A stretch of DNA of 64,000 bases, from positions 62,001 to 126,000 of the forward strand of contig JAVYOA010000009.1 of NCBI GenBank assembly GCA_038734945.1, in the 5' to 3' direction. The position numbers and the translations under genes were made by a program. The notes under the pieces were generated by a model that saw nothing but the letters and a program-made list of their open reading frames with translations, searched no databases and was not told where the DNA came from. This stretch comes from Fervidicoccaceae archaeon. GTDB taxonomy: Archaea > Thermoproteota > Thermoprotei_A > Sulfolobales > Fervidicoccaceae. This document shows, one piece after another, positions 48,433 to 63,343 of this stretch (position 1 is its first letter; every line of letters begins with the position of its first letter).

Positions 48433-51390
48433 CTATATCTTCACTATTTGAATCGCAACTTTCTCCTCATCTATCTCGAACTCTCTTCCACCTCTGGCAT
48501 CTCCCAGCTTTAGCTCGACAGCTCTCGTCTCATTCATGATGAACTTTCCATGTTCATTAATTGCTTTTCTCAGAAGCTCAGAAGCCGTCGATATCTCAAC
48601 TTTTATGAAATCATCATAATTCAGCTTCGCATCCTTTCTCATTAGCTGTATCCTCCTTACTATTTCCTTCGCATATCCAAGCAACAGAGTTTCCTCGTCA
48701 GCTTCCTCAAGTACATATACATTTCCAGCATCCTCTCCAATACTGAGCTCGGAGACAAACTTTTCCGGCTTCTTCTCTAGAACTTCAACCTTTGTCACGT
48801 TGGCCATGCTCGAGATGAGCTCCGAGAGCTCTTTTGCCTCATTCTCGCTGACTTTCTCAATGAGCAATATGGCCGCTCTTTTAATTGGCATCCTCCTCCT
48901 CATCCCCTTGCTGGCTCTATATGCTAATATCGAGTCAACTGCTTTGAAAGCCGCGTCTATCAGCACTCTTGCCCTCACATCTTTGAGTTCCTCCGAAACG
49001 TCCTCTACTGTCTCAAGCATTATGCTCTCTTTCTTTTCGCCTCCCAGGCTCTCAGCCAGCGCTTGATAGAGGTATTCGGCATGATATGGAGTAAATACTG
49101 CCATCAGGGGAAGAGCGAGTCTGAGAGTAGTATATAGAGTAGCATAGGCTGCGCGCTTCTCCGGAACATCTTCCTCCGTCCACACTCTCCTTCTAATGGC
49201 TACAACATATCTGTGGCTCACATCTTCCACGAGAAAATCATAAAGGCTCTTTGAAGCTAAATGAAGATCAAAATCCTCCGCACTTTCCACGACAGTTCTT
49301 ATTACTTCAGACAGCTTCGTCAATATCCACTTGTCAGTCAGAGTAGCAGCCTTTAAATCTTCGCTGACCTTCTGGGGAGTCCACTTGTCTAGCTGAGCAT
49401 ATGAAACTAGGAATTTGAACACATTGTAAATTATTCTTAGCTTGCTCCCTATCTCAGAAATTTCCCTATCAACATACCTTATATCCTGCCATGGGGAGTT
49501 CCTATAGCACATAAATAGCCTCAGCTGGTCTGCTCCATGCTTCCTGATAGAATCCCTCGCCATTACAACATTTCCTTTGCTTTTGCTCATCTTCTGCCCT
49601 TGACTATCGAGGATTAAACCATGCATTCCAAGCCTTCTATATGGGGTCCTATTGTGGAGAACAGTGCTCGTTATGAGGAGTGTATAGAACCACCCCCTCA
49701 CCTGCTCTGGCGGTTCCAATGCAAACGAATATGGATATATCTTTTCGTGCATTTCCTCAAGGCCAAGCTGCCTAAGAGCCGCAGTATGAGCTACCCCACT
49801 ATCAGCCCATACATCTGCCACAAACGGCTCTCTTCTCATCTCGCCATTGCACTTTGGGCATCTCAAAACAATCTCATCTATTGTAGGCTTGTGAGGATCC
49901 TCCAGCTTCCTATGCGATGCCTCCTCCAGCTCTTTTATGGAGCCGAAGACCTCTGTGTGACCACATTTCTCACATCTCCATATTGGCAATGGTGTACCCC
50001 AATATCTTTCCCTAGAAATGCACCAGTCTCTACTGGAGGATACCCACGAATCCATTCTACTGAAGCCCCAGCTTGGTTTGAACAGTGTATCGCTGAGCTC
50101 TTTCCTCATCCTCTCGACAATTGCTGTAGTTTTGAAAAACCACTGAGCACTTGGATAGTAGATGAGCGGTGTTCCACACCTCCAGCAGTGGGGATACTCA
50201 TGCTCGACCTCCTCAAGAAGAAGCACCAATCCCTTTTTCTGCAGAACCTCAACAACTTTTCTGTTAGCCTCTTTGAACCATAGGCCCGAGAATATTCCCG
50301 AGTCCTCTCCAAACACACCATTATCTCTCAGCGGCGTCCATACTTGAAGGTTGTACTTAGCTCCAGTCTCAAAGTCCTCTGGACCGTGCGATGGAGCAGT
50401 GTGCACTATTCCAGTTCCTTCAGTGAGGACAACGTAGTCAGCAGCTACAACAGTGCAGTTGGGAGGAGAACAAGTAGCATTGGCCGGAACCTCTTCTGCA
50501 AGCGGGTGCCTGTATCTTTTTCCAACCAGATCTCTTCCCTTGTACCTATTGATAACTCTAGCAGAAGATTCTTTCAGCTTGGATAGAAGCGAAGGTAAAA
50601 GCTGCTCGGCAAGGATGTACTTCTCTCCCTTAATTTCAACCATAACATAATCTGCTTCCGGATTGACAGCAAGAGCTCTATTAGCTATTATAGTCCACGG
50701 AGTTGTTGTCCATGCTAAAAAGTAGTATTCACCATCCTCAGCTTTTACCTTGAAATATAAACTGGGATCCTTTACAATCTCACTTCCAAGACTGAGCTCG
50801 TGGTTGCTCAGCGCTGTTCCACATCTCGGACATCTGGGCACAACTCTGAAGTCTCTGTAGAGAAGCCCTGCCTCCTTAGCTTTCTTGAGGAACATCCAGA
50901 CAGTCTCCAAATACCTAGGATGCCTCGTCTGATAAGCGTTCTCATAATCCATCCAAATTCCAAGTCTCTCGTTATCTTTAACCCACTCCTCTATGTAGAA
51001 GTCCACGCTTCTTTTGCACTCTTCAATAAACCTAGCAACTCCTATCTTTTCCTCAATTTCCCTCTTGCTCTTAACTCCAAATTTCTTCTCAACTTCAATT
51101 TCAACCGGCAGTCCCTGTGTATCCCACCCACCTTGGGCCCATACCCTGTGCCCCAATAATATGTGCAATCTAATCATCGCATCTTTGTAAATCCTTCCCC
51201 TTGCATGTCCTGCATGCATGAAGCCATTTGTGGTTGGTGGACCCTCGAGAAATGCAAAAATTGGTTTGTCCTTTCTCTGATTCCATGCAGCATCTAGAAC
51301 TTTTTTCCTGATTCCTTCCCTACTCCAGTATTCTAATACAGCCTTTTCTATTTCCTCATGGTTATAGTTCGAAGGAAGCTTCCAGCTCAA
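48433..51390 (-). CDS. ileS: Isoleucyl-tRNA synthetase
   Basis: A class I synthetase charging tRNA-Ile. 985 residues. The HIGH-type motif is HAGHARGR near residue 58; KMSKSKGNVV lies near residue 600. The editing domain (WTTTPWTI, about 225) and anticodon-binding domain (VSHRYVVAIRRRVW) are present, and the C-terminus ends in the archaeal/eukaryotic-type extension. Start ATG overlaps by 4 bases the stop of the upstream IMPase gene, so the two are probably cotranscribed. Confidence 0.96.
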   Translation of the reverse strand: MSWKLPSNYNHEEIEKAVLEYWSREGIRKKVLDAAWNQRKDKPIFAFLEGPPTTNGFMHAGHARGRIYKDAMIRLHILLGHRVWAQGGWDTQGLPVEIEVEKKFGVKSKREIEEKIGVARFIEECKRSVDFYIEEWVKDNERLGIWMDYENAYQTRHPRYLETVWMFLKKAKEAGLLYRDFRVVPRCPRCGTALSNHELSLGSEIVKDPSLYFKVKAEDGEYYFLAWTTTPWTIIANRALAVNPEADYVMVEIKGEKYILAEQLLPSLLSKLKESSARVINRYKGRDLVGKRYRHPLAEEVPANATCSPPNCTVVAADYVVLTEGTGIVHTAPSHGPEDFETGAKYNLQVWTPLRDNGVFGEDSGIFSGLWFKEANRKVVEVLQKKGLVLLLEEVEHEYPHCWRCGTPLIYYPSAQWFFKTTAIVERMRKELSDTLFKPSWGFSRMDSWVSSSRDWCISRERYWGTPLPIWRCEKCGHTEVFGSIKELEEASHRKLEDPHKPTIDEIVLRCPKCNGEMRREPFVADVWADSGVAHTAALRQLGLEEMHEKIYPYSFALEPPEQVRGWFYTLLITSTVLHNRTPYRRLGMHGLILDSQGQKMSKSKGNVVMARDSIRKHGADQLRLFMCYRNSPWQDIRYVDREISEIGSKLRIIYNVFKFLVSYAQLDKWTPQKVSEDLKAATLTDKWILTKLSEVIRTVVESAEDFDLHLASKSLYDFLVEDVSHRYVVAIRRRVWTEEDVPEKRAAYATLYTTLRLALPLMAVFTPYHAEYLYQALAESLGGEKKESIMLETVEDVSEELKDVRARVLIDAAFKAVDSILAYRASKGMRRRMPIKRAAILLIEKVSENEAKELSELISSMANVTKVEVLEKKPEKFVSELSIGEDAGNVYVLEEADEETLLLGYAKEIVRRIQLMRKDAKLNYDDFIKVEISTASELLRKAINEHGKFIMNETRAVELKLGDARGGREFEIDEEKVAIQIVKI

Positions 51391-52304
51391 CTTGCCCCCC
51401 TCCCAAAGAACAACTTTTTAAACCTTTCATCGAGAAATGAGACAAGATTCCTGAATTTATACATTCCATCGAAATTTATCCTGGGTGAATTTCCATTCAG
51501 GTCAAGAACGCTGCCACCCTGAGCAATTACCATTCCAGCTCCTGCTGCCGCATCCACAATTCTCAGCCTAGATCTAGCATCAACAAACGCATCTATTCTC
51601 CCAATAGATACATATGCTAGCTCAAGTGCAGCACTCCCCAAGCTTCTCAAGGAGAGCTTGTTCCCAATGGATGAGAAAATTCTATAGACTTTAGAAACTT
51701 CTTCTATTGCTCCCTCTTCATCCATATATATAGCAAAGTACCTCTCGTTTTCTCTCTTCTCCAATGAGCTGAGAACATCCTCCTTGGTAACCCTTTTATC
51801 ACCGATGAAGACTCCCTTGGAAATTGAGAAGCTTATTGGTTCATCCCAGAAGACTGGATAGACGGAGCCTGCTATAAAGCTGCTCATATCATTCTTGCTT
51901 CTGTCAGCAAACGCTATGCTAACGCTGCACCATCTTATTGATCTAGCATAATTCTTAGAGCCATCAAGCGGATCTATGATGACCACTAGATCATCTTCCC
52001 CCATATCCGTGATCCCACTCTCCTCAGCTATCACTCTTCCACTGAACCCCTCTTCCCTTAGCCTGCTCAATATGTGCTCCTCAGAGATTATATCGGCAGC
52101 TATAGCTTCTCCTCTTCCTTCAACTCTCTCTTTAGCTCTGCCCTTCTCGCTAAGCTCTCTGAGGAGCTCAGCAGCCTCTCTTGAAATGCTCAGGGAAACT
52201 TTCCTCAAGTGCTCATCATCGAGCTTCGAGTTGACCACCCCAGTGCTCCAGGACAGCGGAATATTCTTTAAATTGCTGAGGATATTTATCTTTTCAATGC
52301 ACAA
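51387..52304 (-). CDS. Inositol monophosphatase/fructose-1,6-bisphosphatase family protein
   Basis: A Mg-dependent, Li-sensitive-type phosphatase fold. Metal motifs: VIAEESGI (Glu), VIIDPLDGSKNYARSI (Asp, Asp) and RIVDAAAGAGMVIAQGG (distal Asp). Archaeal members dephosphorylate inositol-1-phosphate, fructose-1,6-bisphosphate or NAD(P). TTG 52304 is the furthest start; the true start may lie up to 25 codons inside, since the first residues (ILSNLKNIPLSW) lack conservation. About 280-305 residues. Coupled to ileS; divergent from the DHH gene over 32 bases. Confidence 0.82.
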   Translation of the reverse strand: MCIEKINILSNLKNIPLSWSTGVVNSKLDDEHLRKVSLSISREAAELLRELSEKGRAKERVEGRGEAIAADIISEEHILSRLREEGFSGRVIAEESGITDMGEDDLVVIIDPLDGSKNYARSIRWCSVSIAFADRSKNDMSSFIAGSVYPVFWDEPISFSISKGVFIGDKRVTKEDVLSSLEKRENERYFAIYMDEEGAIEEVSKVYRIFSSIGNKLSLRSLGSAALELAYVSIGRIDAFVDARSRLRIVDAAAGAGMVIAQGGSVLDLNGNSPRINFDGMYKFRNLVSFLDERFKKLFFGRGAS

Positions 52305-53686: not shown

Positions 53687-53762
53687 GGGCCCGTGGCCTA
53701 GCCAGGATTAAGGCACCGGCCTGCGGAGCCGGAGATCCCGGGTTCAAATCCCGGCGGGCCCG
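53687..53762 (+). tRNA. tRNA-Arg (anticodon GCG)
   Basis: A 76-base cloverleaf: acceptor GGGCCCG pairs with CGGGCCC plus discriminator G; D arm with GGATTAAGG; anticodon stem CCGGC/GCCGG around loop CTGCGGA, anticodon GCG reading CGC (and, if modified, CGU); T arm CCGGG-TTCAAAT-CCCGG. No CCA is encoded and no intron is present. T-rich sequence follows. Confidence 0.95.
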
Positions 53763-53890
53763 CATTTTCAGGATGCATTTAGCTATATTCAACTGTACAT
53801 AAAAATTTCAGAAGTTCTCTGGAGCTTCTGACTATTTCTAAATAATACGCTAATTTTGTAAATCGCAAAAAATATTAATTTGAATAAATA

Positions 53891-53916
53891 TTCATGTGAA
53901 TAGTGATTCACATGAA
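53891..53916. promoter_or_regulatory. Perfect 11-4-11 palindromic operator candidate
   Basis: TTCATGTGAAT, spacer AGTG, ATTCACATGAA: 11 bases of perfect dyad symmetry. It covers the SD (GTGAT) and start codon (ATG 53912) of the HdrA-N-domain gene. The core TGAATAGTGATTCA resembles the 12-2-12 operators of SmtB/ArsR-family repressors, and an ArsR gene is third in this cluster. Binding would block both transcription start and translation region. Confidence 0.65.
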
Positions 53917-54259
53917 AGGGCTTGTAGTATGCGTCTGCCAGGGTACATGCCCCTCATTTTCAAAACTGAATGTTTTTGAACTAATAAATAAGCTTAGGAG
54001 AGAGAAAAAAGTAGATTTTGCCCTTATTCATCCACAGCTATGCGCTTCAGATGGAGACAATCTCTGGAGAGTCCTCTTGGCAGGAAGAAACATCTCAAAA
54101 CTTGTGGTAGCAGGCTGCGCCCCAGAAATGCAGAAGAAGATGTTTGGATGGGTATTCAAGGAGCTGAACTTCGACGAGTCTCTGTTCATTCCTGTCGAGA
54201 TAAGGAACATGACAACAGAGGAAGCTCTACAATCTATTGAGAAAGCACTGGAGCAATAA
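53912..54259 (+). CDS. Stand-alone HdrA N-terminal-domain protein
   Basis: 115 residues homologous by eye to the first 130 residues of the long HdrA at 59951-61900. Both have an N-terminal Cys-x-Cys (C7, C9 here), a central Cys (C44 in PQLCASDGDN versus FMCSEPGQN) and VVAGCAPEMQKKMF versus VIAACSPSMHEQTF (C69). An extra C13 is present. No flavin domain follows. In HdrA this domain precedes the flavin domain and is thought to hold an Fe-S cluster, so this could be a small Fe-S or thiol carrier. ATG 53912 with GTGAT upstream. 15 bases precede the ferredoxin gene. Confidence 0.65.
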   Translation: MKGLVVCVCQGTCPSFSKLNVFELINKLRREKKVDFALIHPQLCASDGDNLWRVLLAGRNISKLVVAGCAPEMQKKMFGWVFKELNFDESLFIPVEIRNMTTEEALQSIEKALEQ

Positions 54260-54274
54260 AAAGGTTGATTCTCC

Positions 54275-54475
54275 ATGACCAAAGATTGGTATCCGATTAT
54301 AGACTATGAGAGATGCACTGGATGCTTAACATGCGTTAATTTTTGTCCACACGCTGTATATAATGTTGGGGAAGACAACAAGCCAAAAGTTGCTTCTCCA
54401 GACAACTGTATAGAAATGTGCAGAGGTTGTCAAAGGATATGCCCTACCTCAGCCATAAGCTATCATGGAGAGTAA
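54275..54475 (+). CDS. 2[4Fe-4S] ferredoxin-like protein
   Basis: 66 residues, begins MTKDWYPIIDYERCTGC. First cluster motif CTGCLTCVNFCP is standard. The second, CIEMCRGCQRICP, has three residues between the first two cysteines rather than two, an altered spacing. Probably carries electrons for the adjacent HdrA-N-domain protein. Tightly placed between that gene and the ArsR gene. Confidence 0.8.
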   Translation: MTKDWYPIIDYERCTGCLTCVNFCPHAVYNVGEDNKPKVASPDNCIEMCRGCQRICPTSAISYHGE

Positions 54476-54526
54476 AAAATAGATATGGCTTTAGCATAAA
54501 TATTCTTCAAGCATGGTTGCTTGGAA

Positions 54527-54910
54527 ATGCCTGAGCAGTATTTACTGAGGGACTTAATCAGAAAAATTCAGGAAGCAGGAATGTGCAAGGAAGAGCCTCC
54601 AGTGCCAGATCTCGATAAAGCTGTAGATCTGCCCACTGAAAATCTGAATACAATCTCAAAAATCTTATCAACAATCTCCGAGCCTTTAAGACTGAAGATT
54701 CTCTATCTTCTCCGCCAATCTCCGCTGCCAGTATGCATAATAGCATTTTTGTTGAAGACTGATAGAACTCTAGTTTCGCATCACATGAATAAGCTCCTTG
54801 AGCTTGGGCTCGTTAAAGTAGAGCGCAGTAGGCGCTTCAGCATATACAGCCTTACGGATCAGGGGAAGGAACTGGTAAAAGCCATCGAAAAAATATTAGA
54901 AAACAGATAA
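54527..54910 (+). CDS. ArsR/SmtB-family transcriptional regulator
   Basis: 127 residues. A 40-residue N-terminal extension (with C20) precedes the winged helix: ISEPLRLKILYLLRQSPLPVCIIAFLLK, recognition helix TLVSHHMNKLLELGLVKVERS, and wing RRFSIYSLTDQG. C70 lies in PLPVC, near the position of the metal-binding Cys of ArsR (ELCVCDL), but the paired Cys is missing; C20 could complete a site. Likely represses its own operon at 53891-53916. TTG 54521 is an alternative start. Confidence 0.82.
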   Translation: MPEQYLLRDLIRKIQEAGMCKEEPPVPDLDKAVDLPTENLNTISKILSTISEPLRLKILYLLRQSPLPVCIIAFLLKTDRTLVSHHMNKLLELGLVKVERSRRFSIYSLTDQGKELVKAIEKILENR

Positions 54911-57441: not shown

Positions 57442-58545
57442 ATGTACCAAACAGTGGTTCCAAAATCAAAGGTTGTTGAGGAAATAAGTAGGCTGGGAGG
57501 CATCGGTCTTCTGAAGTGCTATCAATGCGGTCTGTGCACAGCAATTTGCCCCATTTCCGAGATCTTTCAGAGCAGCTTCAGGAGAACTATAAGATATGCT
57601 CAGCTAGGAATAGCAAACAGGATCATTTCGGATCCCACACCATGGCTCTGTCACGGATGTGGTGAGTGCACAGCATCATGTCCCAGAGAAGCTAATCCTG
57701 GAGACGTGATGGCAGCTGTAAGAAGGTATCAAACAATCCAGTTCTCTCCTGGAAGAGTGGCTTCACTTTTCAATTTCGGCAGAACATCAATTCCGCTCAT
57801 TCTATTCATCTCCTTTTTTGCATCTGCTGCGCTTTATCTGCTCAGAGGAACTCCAAATATGTCCGAGGTCAATATATACTCCCTCATCCCGTACTCAACC
57901 ATACATGCTCTTGGAGTCATCCTAGCAGCATTCATACTTGTCATAGCAGCATATAGCCTGTTACAGATGTACAGGAAGCTAGGAAGAATGAAAGAGCATC
58001 CCAAGAGTGTAGGCAGCATGGAAAAAATTAGCAAGTTATTGAGCGTTATTATATTAGCTGGATTAATTCAGTTGAATTTCAAAAGATGCTCCAACTATCT
58101 CTCTAGGTATATAGCTCATCTCTCCATTTTCTGGGGATTCATAGGATTGTTTGTAGCTAGCAGCATTCACTATGTAAGCGATATTTTTGCTCTTGGTATA
58201 AGCTCATACGTTCCCAGAGCGGTCGGATTAATTTCTGGGGCCTTTCTAATATATGGGAGCTCTTACTACATCTACAAGAGGCTGAGAAAGGATGAAGCTT
58301 TCATTAGACAGAGCACATATTCTGACTGGCTCTTTCTCATTCTCCTTCTCATAGCAGGGATTACCGGCTTTCTCCTCGATGCATTCATATACTTCAACAT
58401 CCCCCTTGCTGCATATTTCACATATGCTGCTCATCTCATATCCGTGTTCGATTTGATCGTTCTCGCCCCATTCACCAAGTTTGCCCATTCCGTCTACAGA
58501 CCAATTGCTATTTGGATCAATGAGATAAGAGGTGCCAATCCTTGA
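57442..58545 (+). CDS. qmoC: QmoC-like membrane subunit (HdrC Fe-S domain fused to cytochrome b)
   Basis: 367 residues. The N-terminal HdrC domain has two complete [4Fe-4S] sets: CYQCGLCTAICP (C26-C36) and CHGCGECTASCP (C70-C80). After about residue 110 come six membrane segments of NarI/HdrE type, with candidate haem-ligand His in SRYIAHLSIFWG, SSIHYVSD, YAAHLISV and FAHSVYRP. This fusion is the layout of QmoC in quinone-interacting membrane oxidoreductases of sulfate reducers. It should exchange electrons between quinone and the HdrA flavoproteins. First gene of a six-gene overlapping operon. Confidence 0.88.
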   Translation: MYQTVVPKSKVVEEISRLGGIGLLKCYQCGLCTAICPISEIFQSSFRRTIRYAQLGIANRIISDPTPWLCHGCGECTASCPREANPGDVMAAVRRYQTIQFSPGRVASLFNFGRTSIPLILFISFFASAALYLLRGTPNMSEVNIYSLIPYSTIHALGVILAAFILVIAAYSLLQMYRKLGRMKEHPKSVGSMEKISKLLSVIILAGLIQLNFKRCSNYLSRYIAHLSIFWGFIGLFVASSIHYVSDIFALGISSYVPRAVGLISGAFLIYGSSYYIYKRLRKDEAFIRQSTYSDWLFLILLLIAGITGFLLDAFIYFNIPLAAYFTYAAHLISVFDLIVLAPFTKFAHSVYRPIAIWINEIRGANP

Positions 58546-59954
58546 TTTTTCCATTGAAAGATCTCAGTTCCTCTCAAGAGTTGCGGAATGCATCTAGCTT
58601 AAAATTGAGAACTAACGCGCATAGCTCGAAGCCTGTTCTAGTAGTAGGAGCAGGAATAGCAGGAATCCAAGCAGCTCTCGATTTGGCAGAGCAAGGAATT
58701 AAGGTCTACCTCATAGATAGAAATCCGAGCATAGGAGGAAAAATGGCCCTTCTAGACAAAACATTTCCAACCCTTGATTGTGCTTCATGCATTCTTGCGC
58801 CCAAAATGGCATCTGTGCAGAGAAATCCAAACATAAAAATTCTCACGCTATCTGAGTTAAAGCAAATAGATGGGAAGGCCGGAAACTTCCATTGCAGAAT
58901 CCTCAAGCATCCAAGCTATGTAGACTGGGAAAAGTGCACTGGATGTGGCACATGCATAGAGAAGTGCCCCCAGAAAGTTCCAGATGAGTTCAATCTAGGA
59001 ATGAGCAAGAGAAAAGCAATCTTCATAGCTTTTCCCCAAGCTGTTCCGAGAAAGGCGGTTATAGATGCAGCGAATTGCTTGAGGTTGAACCCCCCTCAGA
59101 AACTGAAAGAAAGAGCTGGGGGGAGAGCGATCTGCGGCATTTGCGAGAGATTTTGTCCTGCAGGAGCCATAAAGTTCAGCGATGCATCAGAGGAAGTCAT
59201 TATTGAAGCATCCGCCGTGATAATTGCAACTGGTATGGAAATTTATGATGCTCGGAATGTTCCCGAGTATGGCTATGGGAAATATCAAAACGTTTTTGTT
59301 CACCTCGAATTCGAGAGAATGCTCTCAGCTACGGGACCGACTGGAGGATTGATATTAAGGAGAAGCGATGGGAAGCCCCCGAGAAGAATCGCATGGATTC
59401 AATGCGTAGGCTCCAGAGATATAAGGTTCAACCACTACTGCTCATCTTTCTGCTGCATGGCAGCAACCAAGCAAGCAGTTCTTGCCAAGGAACACTTGGA
59501 AAATGTGAGCTGCACTATATACTACATGGACATCAGAGCTTTTGGCAAGGGATTCAACGAGTTCATAGAGAGGGCAAAGAACGAGTTTGGCATTAAATAT
59601 GTTAGAGGAAAAGTTGCTAGAATTGAGGAGGATCCAAGCTCTAGGGATCTCACGCTCATATATGAGGACACCTCCCATAGCTACCTGAAGAGAGAGAGCT
59701 ACGATTTGGTGGTCCTGGCAGTAGCAATTAGGCCAAACAGGATCTATCCAATAATCCCAGTTGAAACGAATGAGGATGGCTTCGTGAAGCTTAAAGATCC
59801 CTACATAGATCCCGTTTCTACAACAGTCGATGGAATATTCGTGGCTGGAGTGGCAGCTGGAGCAAAGGATATACCCGATTCAGTCAGTGAGGCCAGTGCA
59901 GCTGCTGCTAGAGCAGCCCTCATCGCTAAGCAAAAAGGTGGTGCTGGAAGTTGA
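58542..59954 (+). CDS. HdrA-like flavoprotein 1 (QmoA-like)
   Basis: 470 residues. A short unstructured start is followed by the FAD fold VLVVGAGIAGIQAALDLAE (about 32-50). The HdrA-specific FPTLDCASCILAPKM (C80, C83) is present. Fe-S motifs are CTGCGTCIEKCP and an irregular set (Cys at INAANCLRL-type position, then CGICERFCPAG). The CVGSRDIR plus YCSSFCCMAATKQA motif is that of the HdrA core. It lacks the HdrA N-terminal domain and C-terminal ferredoxin domain, as QmoA does. TTG 58542 has GAGGTG upstream and overlaps qmoC by 4 bases. Confidence 0.85.
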   Translation: MIFPLKDLSSSQELRNASSLKLRTNAHSSKPVLVVGAGIAGIQAALDLAEQGIKVYLIDRNPSIGGKMALLDKTFPTLDCASCILAPKMASVQRNPNIKILTLSELKQIDGKAGNFHCRILKHPSYVDWEKCTGCGTCIEKCPQKVPDEFNLGMSKRKAIFIAFPQAVPRKAVIDAANCLRLNPPQKLKERAGGRAICGICERFCPAGAIKFSDASEEVIIEASAVIIATGMEIYDARNVPEYGYGKYQNVFVHLEFERMLSATGPTGGLILRRSDGKPPRRIAWIQCVGSRDIRFNHYCSSFCCMAATKQAVLAKEHLENVSCTIYYMDIRAFGKGFNEFIERAKNEFGIKYVRGKVARIEEDPSSRDLTLIYEDTSHSYLKRESYDLVVLAVAIRPNRIYPIIPVETNEDGFVKLKDPYIDPVSTTVDGIFVAGVAAGAKDIPDSVSEASAAAARAALIAKQKGGAGS

Positions 59955-61900
59955 GCGAGAAGCCAAGGATAGGCATCTACATCTGCCACTGCGGTCTTAA
60001 CATAGCAGGAACTGTGGACGTAGAAGAGCTCGCGAGATATGCAGCATCTCTTCCCGACGTCATCGTAGCGAGAGATTATGTTTTCATGTGCTCTGAGCCT
60101 GGGCAGAATCTCATAAAGGAGGACATAAAGGAGAAAGAACTTAACAGAATAGTTATAGCAGCATGCTCTCCATCTATGCATGAACAGACTTTTAGATCAG
60201 TTCTCGAATCTGCAGGACTCAACAAATACTTACTAGAAATGGCCAACATAAGAGAGCACTGCTCTTGGATACATTCAGACAGAAGAAAGGCGACAGAGAA
60301 AGCAAAGGAGATAGTCAGAATGGCAGCTTCCAAGGCAAGGTACTTGGAGCCAATAGAAGAGAAAACTTTCCCAACTACAAGAAACGTCATGATCTTGGGC
60401 GGAGGAGTTGCTGGAATGAGAGCAGCTATAGAGCTGGCAGAATACGGCTTTGAGGTCTATCTTGTCGAGAGAAAGCCCATTCTAGGAGGGAAATCTGCAG
60501 TCATAGGTTACATTTCTCCTGGAATAAGGGGTAAAGAAATAGTTCAAAAGATGTTCGAGAGAATAAGGGGAAATCCAAGGATACATGTTTTCACTCAAGC
60601 TGAGCTCATTGAGCTAAAGGGATTTGCTGGGAACTTCACGGGAAAGCTGAGAATTCATCCAAAACATGTGAATGAAAGATGTAACGAGTGTGGGGAATGC
60701 GAAGATGCTTGTCCCATAGAAATATCAAATGAATATGACTTCTCTCTGAGCAGGAGAAAGGCAATTTACAAGCCATTTCCCGGCTCATACCCAGAGGGCT
60801 ATATTATAGATGATAGAGTTTGCGTCAAGTGCGGAGAGTGTGTTAGAGCATGCAGGAGAAAAGCTATAGATCTAGATGGGGAGGAGAAGTTAATTGAGAT
60901 CAAATTCGGAGCTCTCATCATAGCTGTAGGCTATGATCCCTACAGACCCTCCAAAGGCGAGTTTGGATATGGCTTGAGTGACTCCGTGCTGACTCTCTTC
61001 CAGCTAGAAAGATTGCTTGACGAGGATGGTCCCACCAGGGGGGAGCCGATTGTAAGAGGGAAGATTCCAGAGACAATAGCTTTTGTTCAGTGTGTGGGGT
61101 CTAGAAGCACAACCCCCTCATCAAGACCTTACTGCTCGAGAATGTGCTGCACATCTGCTCTAACCAATGCCATAAGGCTGAAGGAAAAACATCCGGAAAT
61201 TGAGATATTCTTCATATACAGAGATATAATGACCTATGGGAGCGATGAGGGGCTCTACGAAGAAGCCGGAAAGAGAATGATAAAGTTCATAAAGTACGAG
61301 GGAGAACCTCCACAGGTCCAAATTACACCCGAGGGAGTATTCATAGAAGTCACCGATTACCTTCTGCAGGAAAGCATAAGAATACCGGTAGACGCTGTCA
61401 TCCTTTCGACCGGAATGATTCCTCCAAGGGATCTGGGAGACGTCATTGCTGTTACAAGGGCAACATGTGGAGAGGAGGGGTTTCTGAGGGAGGCCCACAT
61501 AAAGCTTGCCCCCGTCGAATCACCAACCAGAGGAATATACATAGCAGGATCTGTTTCAGGTCCCAAGAACATAAGAGAGAGCATAATTTCCGGGAGTGCT
61601 GCAGCTGCTAAGGCTATGGCCCTCATTAGTAGAGGAGAAGTTGTTGCTGAACCAATGATAGCCAAGGTTGATGAAGAAAGATGCAGCGGCTGCGGGATCT
61701 GCATTTCTGCATGCCCCTATAATGCCATTTCGATAGAGGAAAAGGAAGGTGATAGACTGGCAAGAGTGGAAGATGCTCTCTGCATGGGATGCGGGACATG
61801 CGCCTCAGCGTGCCCGTCTGGAGCAATGCAGCAGTTGGGTTTCAAGGACATTCAGATAAGAGCTCAGATATCCGCTTTATCGGAGGTCGAAGGGAAATGA
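59951..61900 (+). CDS. hdrA: HdrA-like flavoprotein 2, full-length (QmoB/HdrA type)
   Basis: 649 residues. N-terminal Fe-S-type domain 1-140 (C12, C14, C47, C72, C104), FAD fold ILGGGVAGMRAAIELAE at about 148-164, core Fe-S motifs CNECGECEDACP and CVKCGECVRACR, the CVGSRSTT plus YCSRMCCTSA motif, and a C-terminal 2[4Fe-4S] domain (CSGCGICISACP, CMGCGTCASACP). The double-Cys loop of HdrA1 is absent here; that region reads SAVIGYISPGIRG. TTG 59951 overlaps hdrA1. With the next gene (MvhD) it corresponds to QmoB, which is an HdrA-MvhD fusion. Confidence 0.9.
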   Translation: MSEKPRIGIYICHCGLNIAGTVDVEELARYAASLPDVIVARDYVFMCSEPGQNLIKEDIKEKELNRIVIAACSPSMHEQTFRSVLESAGLNKYLLEMANIREHCSWIHSDRRKATEKAKEIVRMAASKARYLEPIEEKTFPTTRNVMILGGGVAGMRAAIELAEYGFEVYLVERKPILGGKSAVIGYISPGIRGKEIVQKMFERIRGNPRIHVFTQAELIELKGFAGNFTGKLRIHPKHVNERCNECGECEDACPIEISNEYDFSLSRRKAIYKPFPGSYPEGYIIDDRVCVKCGECVRACRRKAIDLDGEEKLIEIKFGALIIAVGYDPYRPSKGEFGYGLSDSVLTLFQLERLLDEDGPTRGEPIVRGKIPETIAFVQCVGSRSTTPSSRPYCSRMCCTSALTNAIRLKEKHPEIEIFFIYRDIMTYGSDEGLYEEAGKRMIKFIKYEGEPPQVQITPEGVFIEVTDYLLQESIRIPVDAVILSTGMIPPRDLGDVIAVTRATCGEEGFLREAHIKLAPVESPTRGIYIAGSVSGPKNIRESIISGSAAAAKAMALISRGEVVAEPMIAKVDEERCSGCGICISACPYNAISIEEKEGDRLARVEDALCMGCGTCASACPSGAMQQLGFKDIQIRAQISALSEVEGK

Positions 61901-62331
61901 ACAGAGAGTGGACTCCCAGAATAGTAGCTTTTGTTTGCAACTGGTGCACCTATGCAGCAGCTGATCTGGCTGGGACTAGCAGGATGCAGCAGCCCGACAG
62001 CGTGAGGATAGTTAGGCTCATGTGCTCTGGTAGAGCAGATCCCCAATTCGTTCTAGAGGCAATAGCTAATGGGGCGGATGGGGTAATAGTTGCTGGGTGC
62101 CATCCGCCCTCAGATTGTCACTATCAAGAAGGGAACTACAGAGCCTTTAGAAGATTCATGCTCCTCCGAAGGGTGCTGGAATCCATGGGTGTCGAGAAGG
62201 AGAGATTCAGACTGGAGTGGATCTCAGCCTCGGAAGCGAGGAAGTGGGTAGAAGTAGTGAGGAGCATGACGGAGGATCTCAAGAGGCTTGGCCCGCTCAG
62301 AAGGGACGAAGAGGGGATAAAGGTTGAATAA
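61897..62331 (+). CDS. mvhD: Methyl-viologen-reducing hydrogenase delta subunit (MvhD)
   Basis: 144 residues. The [2Fe-2S]-binding cysteines are CNWCTYAAADLAG (C14, C17), VRLMCSGR (C43), AGCHPPSDCHY (C68, C74). MvhD connects the hydrogenase to HdrA. Start is ATG 61897 with GGAGGT upstream, overlapping hdrA2 by 4 bases; a 36-codon upstream extension lies inside hdrA2 and is spurious. Its position between HdrA2 and MvhG fits its bridging role. Confidence 0.92.
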   Translation: MNREWTPRIVAFVCNWCTYAAADLAGTSRMQQPDSVRIVRLMCSGRADPQFVLEAIANGADGVIVAGCHPPSDCHYQEGNYRAFRRFMLLRRVLESMGVEKERFRLEWISASEARKWVEVVRSMTEDLKRLGPLRRDEEGIKVE

Positions 62332-63343
62332 ACTGAAAGTAGCATGGTATTGGTGTGCTTCATGCGGAGGCTGTGAAGAATCTTTCGTTGATCTCTCGGA
62401 GGAGCTGGTGGAGTTCTTCGAATCAGCCGATCTCGTGTTTTGCCCCGTAGCAACAGATTTCAAAAAGGAAGATGTTGAGAGGCTGCCAGATGCTTCTGTT
62501 GACGTTGCTCTAATAAATGGGGGAATAAGACTGAGCGAGCACGAAGAAATGGTTAAGCTATTGAGAAGAAAGTCCAAAATTGTAGTGGCATACGGAACAT
62601 GTTCTAGCTGGGGAGGAATTCCAGGCCTCTCAAATTTGTACAATAAGGAAGAGATTTTAAGAGCAAAATACCTTGATCCGCCTTCCATCAACAATCCTAC
62701 GCATGCAGTTCCTGCTGAGAGAACGAGGCTCACCAAGCTGGGAGCAAATCTGGAGCTTCCAGCCTTCCTAGACTCTCTCCTTCCTCTAAATGCTGTCATA
62801 GATGTTGATTACTATATTCCAGGCTGCCCTCCTACACCTGAAGTCTTCAAGAATGCATTAAAGGCTCTAATAAGCGAAAAGCTGCCTCCAAAAGGAAGCA
62901 TAATCGGTGCTTCAGACAAGTCGCTATGCGATGAATGTCCACTGAATTCAACCAAGCCTGAGAAGATCTTGCTGAAGGAGCTTAAAAGACCTCACGAAAC
63001 TATAGCGGATGCAAAGAAGTGCTTGCTTACCCAGGGCCTTCTCTGTCTTGGACCAGTTACAAGGGGAGGATGCGGAGCTCTATGCATTAAGGCCGCCATG
63101 CAGTGTACAGGATGCTTTGGTCCACTAGATGGAATAGCTGACTACGGAGGAAAGGCCATCTCATTCATAGGAACAATAATGGACTATTCCCCTGCTGAAG
63201 AAGAGGAGCTGGAGCGTGCTTACAGTAAAATAAAGGATTGGGTGGGAGTAGTGTACAAGTACACTCTACCTGCCTCAAAGCTGGGAGGGAGAGTGAGGAG
63301 AGAAAAGACAAAAAGGCAGGAGGAGGCCGAGATAGATGAGTAG
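62324..63343 (+). CDS. mvhG: F420-non-reducing [NiFe] hydrogenase small subunit (MvhG)
   Basis: 339 residues. Proximal cluster: CASCGGCEES (C11, C14), AYGTCSSWGG and PGCPPTPE. Distal/medial cysteines: CDECPLNS, LLCLGPVTRGGCGALCIKAAMQCTGC. This is the small subunit of group 3c-type cytoplasmic hydrogenases, without a Tat leader, so cytoplasmic. TTG 62324 overlaps mvhD by 8 bases. Passes electrons from the NiFe centre to MvhD. Confidence 0.92.
   Translation: MNKLKVAWYWCASCGGCEESFVDLSEELVEFFESADLVFCPVATDFKKEDVERLPDASVDVALINGGIRLSEHEEMVKLLRRKSKIVVAYGTCSSWGGIPGLSNLYNKEEILRAKYLDPPSINNPTHAVPAERTRLTKLGANLELPAFLDSLLPLNAVIDVDYYIPGCPPTPEVFKNALKALISEKLPPKGSIIGASDKSLCDECPLNSTKPEKILLKELKRPHETIADAKKCLLTQGLLCLGPVTRGGCGALCIKAAMQCTGCFGPLDGIADYGGKAISFIGTIMDYSPAEEEELERAYSKIKDWVGVVYKYTLPASKLGGRVRREKTKRQEEAEIDE

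Follow-up and report, generated by a model that had tools for sequence, protein, structure and literature searches.

A free-standing protein that corresponds to the N-terminal iron-sulfur domain of HdrA, here termed HdrN, is on sequence comparison one half of a conserved pair with a ferredoxin (Fdx) across anaerobic archaea, mostly in genomes in which no HdrA can be detected. In the clade of the window (the whole 64 kb stretch of Fervidicoccaceae DNA analysed here), an ArsR-type repressor appears to be tied to the hdrN promoter through tandem operator candidates. The families to which the component parts belong are already known; what is new is their arrangement and the HdrN protein subfamily. 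To our knowledge, the HdrA N-domain is known only as part of HdrA, where it needs a second HdrA to complete its cluster. No paper on a stand-alone HdrA N-domain was found in the open-licence PMC literature, nor was any paper or named system describing hdrN-fdx-arsR, in agreement with a sequence-only reading of the window, which had recognised no named system of this composition.

HdrN and its ferredoxin partner

The three genes lie in one direction at 53912-54910, preceded by a tRNA-Arg gene (53687-53763). hdrN (53912..54259, +) encodes a protein of 115 aa and starts at ATG 53912, with an in-frame GTG at 53903 as a possible alternative. fdx (54275..54475, +; 66 aa) begins 15 nt after hdrN, and is followed by arsR (54527..54910, +; 127 aa), which starts at ATG 54527 or possibly at TTG 54521. 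The open reading frames were confirmed, and as the adjacency of hdrN and fdx recurs in 48 of 51 loci from two phyla, it is not due to chance. Within the clade of the window, co-transcription of the pair with arsR is probable.

Compared as single sequences, HdrN and HdrA show weak similarity (NCBIfam 1e-4; PDB 0.05). A profile-profile comparison of 45 HdrN sequences with 15 HdrA N-domains gives an alignment over the whole length, with a probability of 97% and an E-value of 1.4e-11. The AlphaFold2 model of HdrN (pLDDT 88.8) matches seven HdrA chains in the PDB at E<1e-3, and nothing else. HdrN is therefore a homologue of the HdrA N-terminal Fe-S domain by both profile and fold, which bears out the initial proposal of a stand-alone HdrA N-domain and the structural comparison suggested to check it. 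The protein ends at a conserved stop and consists of the N-domain alone, without the FAD/thioredoxin-reductase domain, the CXnCX3CC cluster or the ferredoxin domains. Its similarity to MvhD is weak (11% probability by hhalign), while that of MvhD to the HdrA N-domain is moderate (78%). Homology between HdrN and DGC proteins, prompted by a CQGTC likeness at one locus (L011), was rejected (hhalign E 0.32); the DGC fold model is weak (pLDDT 71) and has no PDB match under 1e-3.

In the profile alignment C7/C9, C44 and C69 of HdrN fall on HdrA cysteines, as had been stated from the sequence. A fifth cysteine, C13, had been overlooked; it completes a CxCxGxC motif and lies within a two-residue insertion that is absent from HdrA. 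All five are invariant in 37 of 37 aligned sequences. In the HdrA N-domain, one of the cluster ligands is Cys197 of the partner protomer (Chadwick et al., PMC9012536), and C13 may thus be a local substitute for this borrowed residue.

Fdx carries the two four-cysteine motifs of a 2[4Fe-4S] ferredoxin (Pfam Fer4_10, 6e-10). The second motif starts with CX3C rather than CX2C, so that the altered spacing remarked on earlier is confirmed as CX3CX2CX3CP, and its four cysteines are kept without exception in the 37 ferredoxins aligned. At the three loci that lack an adjacent fdx, hdrN too is damaged, being truncated or broken, and occasionally the order of the two genes is reversed (L011, L075). The distance matrices of HdrN and Fdx correlate with a rho of 0.66, a value reached in 0 of 1000 permutations and not fully corrected for shared ancestry. 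This type of ferredoxin is not exclusive to HdrN, since it is also found beside ArsR without hdrN (L134 in G044). There, and at L129 in G212, it lies divergent from a PVC-type ArsR with no adjacent hdrN.

Orthologues of HdrN occur in 34 of 398 Thermoproteota genomes and in 15 of 115 genomes of the Thermococcus phylum. None was found on plasmids, and an exact-peptide scan of genome contigs, including those of bacteria, returned only archaeal matches. The HdrN tree divides into two groups (support 100/100), one with the motif CVCQGTC, found in the window's order, Terraquivivens and Thermococcus, and one with CxCTGxC, found in other Thermoproteota lineages. The window protein is ~70% identical to the Thermococcus copies and only ~40% identical to the CxCTGxC group, and hdrN is present in only one of three genomes of the window's own family; together these observations suggest horizontal spread. 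At one locus in the window's order (L082, G232:C1:381103-387225) hdrN is split by an insert of ~5.8 kb, with fdx and arsR still behind it. Two copies from the Thermococcus phylum (L091 and L092, in G496 and G505) are frameshifted or truncated.

A search with the flavin domain of the window HdrA (E 1e-20 or better) detected no HdrA in 22 of 37 hdrN-bearing genomes, among them G155, G173, G179, G185 and G232 (99% complete). HdrA went undetected in all Thermococcus-type genomes tested, save the more distant G404. HdrA is thus not a constant companion of hdrN, as would be expected for a subunit of an HdrA complex, and HdrN appears to be independent of it; the suggestion that HdrN feeds HdrA complexes is not supported as a general role.

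The window itself also contains an Hdr/Mvh cluster (57442-63343) with two HdrAs, MvhD and a hydrogenase small subunit, and a similar layout is found at L113 (G259). The HdrA at 58542-59954, ~4.3 kb downstream of the module, has the Cys197 motif (LDCASC) and no N-domain; that at 59951-61900 has an N-domain and is missing Cys197. By these motifs the two are already complementary to each other, and the cluster matches the heterodimeric HdrA pattern proposed by Chadwick et al. (PMC9012536).

The ArsR regulator and the gene neighbourhood

The third gene of the module encodes an ArsR/SmtB-type winged-helix repressor, scoring 58.2 bits against the curated cut-off of 55 for NF033788 (PF01022, 1.6e-12). 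As first described, it has two cysteines, N-terminal C20 and C70, both conserved in close ArsR relatives. C70 sits in an LPVCII segment and corresponds in the alignment to the second of the two CVC-box cysteines; of the classical ELCVCD metal box this Cys alone is kept. Because one cysteine is N-terminal and the other falls in the classical metal-box region, the signal is likely to be a soft metal(loid) or otherwise thiol-reactive. Lack of co-occurrence elsewhere had been named as a refutation of the three-gene module; hdrN and fdx do recur together consistently. ArsR is not obligate, since it lies within 3 kb of hdrN in 18 of 51 loci (like the per-locus DGC counts below, a hand tally with a 3 kb range).

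Two tandem TGAAT-N4-ATTCA sites are located upstream of hdrN. The first, TGAATAAATATTCA (53881..53894, +), is an exact match. The second (53897-53910) is part of a perfect palindrome, TTCATGTGAATA-GT-GATTCACATGAA (53891..53916, +), which has 11-bp arms and a 4-bp centre and overlaps the hdrN start codon. Operators of SmtB/ArsR proteins are of the 12-2-12 type (PMC8790569, PMC5658604), and the palindrome, an inverted repeat at the start of the putatively regulated gene, fits this pattern; its position is conserved in relatives with a linked ArsR. The window contains three exact TGAAT-N4-ATTCA matches against 0.26 expected, two of which are those upstream of hdrN, and the whole 1.34 Mb genome contains only four. 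The third match in the window (51486-51499) lies inside a gene (51387-52304) and is probably there by chance.

Among relatives with a linked ArsR, an exact TGAAN6TTCA lies within 60 nt of the start in five of six loci, against 0.01 expected, and the sixth has one mismatch. ArsR and operator are concordant in 11 of 11 genomes. Both are present in seven (G000, G041, where the operator has one mismatch, G069, G185, G232, G399 and G212), all of them with a window-type ArsR, while G155, G173, G179 and G349 have neither an operator nor a window-type ArsR at E 1e-8. The ArsR of G212 is encoded away from hdrN, at L129, where it is divergent from another ferredoxin. The hdrN promoters of Thermococcus have weaker operator matches, mostly with one mismatch, and more distant ArsR homologues are encoded elsewhere in these genomes. 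One member of the window's family that has no hdrN (L128, G052:C1:1262929-1263276) carries a window-type ArsR, possibly a decayed remnant, with two stops in the matched frame and a CitMHS-type transporter adjacent.

Neighbours other than fdx vary and none is universal. A DGC protein is encoded within 3 kb of hdrN in 23 of 51 loci, and neither DGC nor ArsR in 17. Within the Thermoproteota, DGC is found in 19 of 34 genomes with hdrN versus 37 of 364 without (p 1e-9, or 2e-7 after collapsing one near-clonal genus, with shared ancestry not fully corrected). No described function of DGC proteins (PF08859) was found in the open-licence PMC literature, where none of the titles listed dealt with this family, and the window genome encodes no DGC protein. 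ACR3 lies near the module at L085 and L096 (TIGR00832, over the curated cut-off), an ACR3-like transporter at L129, and an ArsC-like LMW phosphatase in some relatives; sulfur and Fe-S neighbours comprise TusA, GcvH-like, Thioredoxin_3, TauE, SufBC, Mrp and OsmC. The recurrent neighbours point to soft-metal/metalloid or sulfur stress, and the sulfur/metal stress context initially envisaged is plausible. The window module has no arsenic gene, pump or arsenate reductase alongside and does not qualify as an arsenic resistance operon.

Among individual loci, L086 (G285:C20) has five tandem DGC-family genes after hdrN-fdx and then a GcvH-like gene, and L075 and L102 have, immediately downstream of hdrN, AOR-like (aldehyde ferredoxin oxidoreductase) genes together with a multi-cluster ferredoxin. 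In the Cd transcriptome of T. gammatolerans, OsmC (tg1059) and ArsR genes are regulated by Cd (PMC3407056); no link between these genes and the hdrN locus was found.

A proposed redox relay and its alternatives

It is proposed, with a confidence that stands midway between acceptance and rejection, that HdrN is part of an ArsR-controlled, ferredoxin-driven and HdrA-independent redox relay acting in soft-metal/sulfur stress. The pairing of hdrN with fdx and the control by ArsR are considerably firmer than the substrate of this relay. HdrN and Fdx would form a small electron-transfer pair independent of HdrA, in which Fdx, with a predicted two [4Fe-4S] clusters, would contact HdrN and hand low-potential electrons to a putative Fe-S centre within it. 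The extra C13 may supply locally the ligand that Cys197 provides in HdrA, allowing the domain to work alone. In the window's clade, ArsR would bind the tandem TGAAT-N4-ATTCA repeats, which overlap the start of hdrN, and would leave the DNA once its two cysteines capture a thiol-reactive signal. This signal would most likely be a soft metal(loid), As(III) for instance, and failing that reactive sulfur. The derepressed pair would then supply electrons for thiol/sulfur or Fe-S repair chemistry with variable partners, for example DGC proteins. A bolder version, to which only a small probability is attached, is that of a categorically new way of detoxification in anaerobes. HdrN would be a reductase that is driven by ferredoxin and independent of HdrA; once arsenite or reactive sulfur lifts the repression, it would reduce thioarsenicals, metal-thiolates or persulfides, and proteins of the DGC family would carry the sulfur or metal.

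A possible, if doubtful, alternative is that HdrN-Fdx reduces or relays persulfide or polysulfide sulfur with DGC, TusA, GcvH/LbpA-like and thioredoxin-type partners, and that ArsR senses reactive sulfur, not metals. GcvH-like genes directly behind DGC genes (L079, L085, L086), TusA beside L065, two Thioredoxin_3-type proteins in L075 and TauE/SafE transporters in L080 and L081 are consistent with this, as are the only two cysteines of ArsR, which are compatible with disulfide-type sensing. However, each sulfur gene occurs in few loci, and metal(loid)s are the better match for the ACR3/ArsC neighbours and for the CVC-type ArsRs at other loci. HdrN might instead be a scaffold or carrier for Fe-S assembly or repair that Fdx helps to load and that is induced upon the destruction of clusters by soft metals. 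Such a factor is favoured by divergent SufB/SufC-like genes next to the module at 11 loci of the Thermococcus phylum, by the f17 operon Mrp-DGC-hdrN-fdx with its Mrp-type ATPase, and by neighbours of the NifX/MrpORP-like kind. The window and most Thermoproteota have no such neighbour, however, and the five invariant cysteines lie in a domain known in HdrA as an electron-transfer element; this reading is considered unlikely.

The sharing of the HdrA N-domain cluster in trans (PMC9012536), and the presence ~4.3 kb downstream of an HdrA that has the Cys197 motif and no N-domain, could indicate that HdrN complements such an HdrA. That HdrA already has its partner in the adjacent 59951-61900 protein, and the hdrN-bearing genomes without detectable HdrA largely refute a general role of this kind, so that this explanation is very improbable. 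That HdrN is merely a functionless, degenerate fragment of hdrA is scarcely credible. Some copies elsewhere are indeed broken (G232, G496, G505), yet conservation over two phyla, the invariant cysteines and the constant partner gene refute the idea; the homologues, which would have refuted the earlier reading had they consistently been pieces of broken hdrA genes, form a separate family with its own insertion, mostly in genomes where HdrA is undetected.

Significance and comparison with known systems

A self-contained HdrN with its own ferredoxin in archaea that lack HdrA, such as Thermococcus, would establish the domain as a redox module in its own right, and this would bear on the assembly of bifurcating Hdr enzymes. 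The hdrN module is also a concrete lead on the soft-metal and reactive-sulfur response of anaerobic, sulfide-rich archaea, and it suggests for DGC proteins (PF08859) a role that can be tested.

The best NCBIfam match of Fdx is the HgcB-type 2[4Fe-4S] ferredoxin (NF040864), at 46.7 bits far below the curated cut-off of 99, and no HgcA is seen beside the module. The sHdr sulfur oxidation system, with its lipoate-binding protein LbpA, resembles the module in having an Hdr-type domain and, at a few loci, GcvH/LbpA-like and TusA-like neighbours. The module differs in having the HdrA N-domain only, without HdrB/HdrC-like genes, and a GcvH-like gene occurs in just 3 of 51 loci. With the N-terminal Fe-S domain of HdrA in HdrABC (PDB 5odc/7bkd/8rvu), HdrN shares the fold, a full-length alignment and the CxC...C...C cysteine positions; unlike HdrA, which is often absent from the genome, it stands alone, has the extra invariant C13 and lacks the FAD/thioredoxin-reductase domain. 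The ArsR/SmtB metal(loid) resistance operons (ArsR-ACR3-ArsC) have in common with the module an ArsR-type repressor and a 12-2-12-type operator at the operon start, and ACR3 and ArsC are themselves neighbours of the module in some relatives. In contrast to those operons, the window module has no pump beside it, and the genes that appear to be controlled are the HdrN-ferredoxin pair rather than a pump or reductase.
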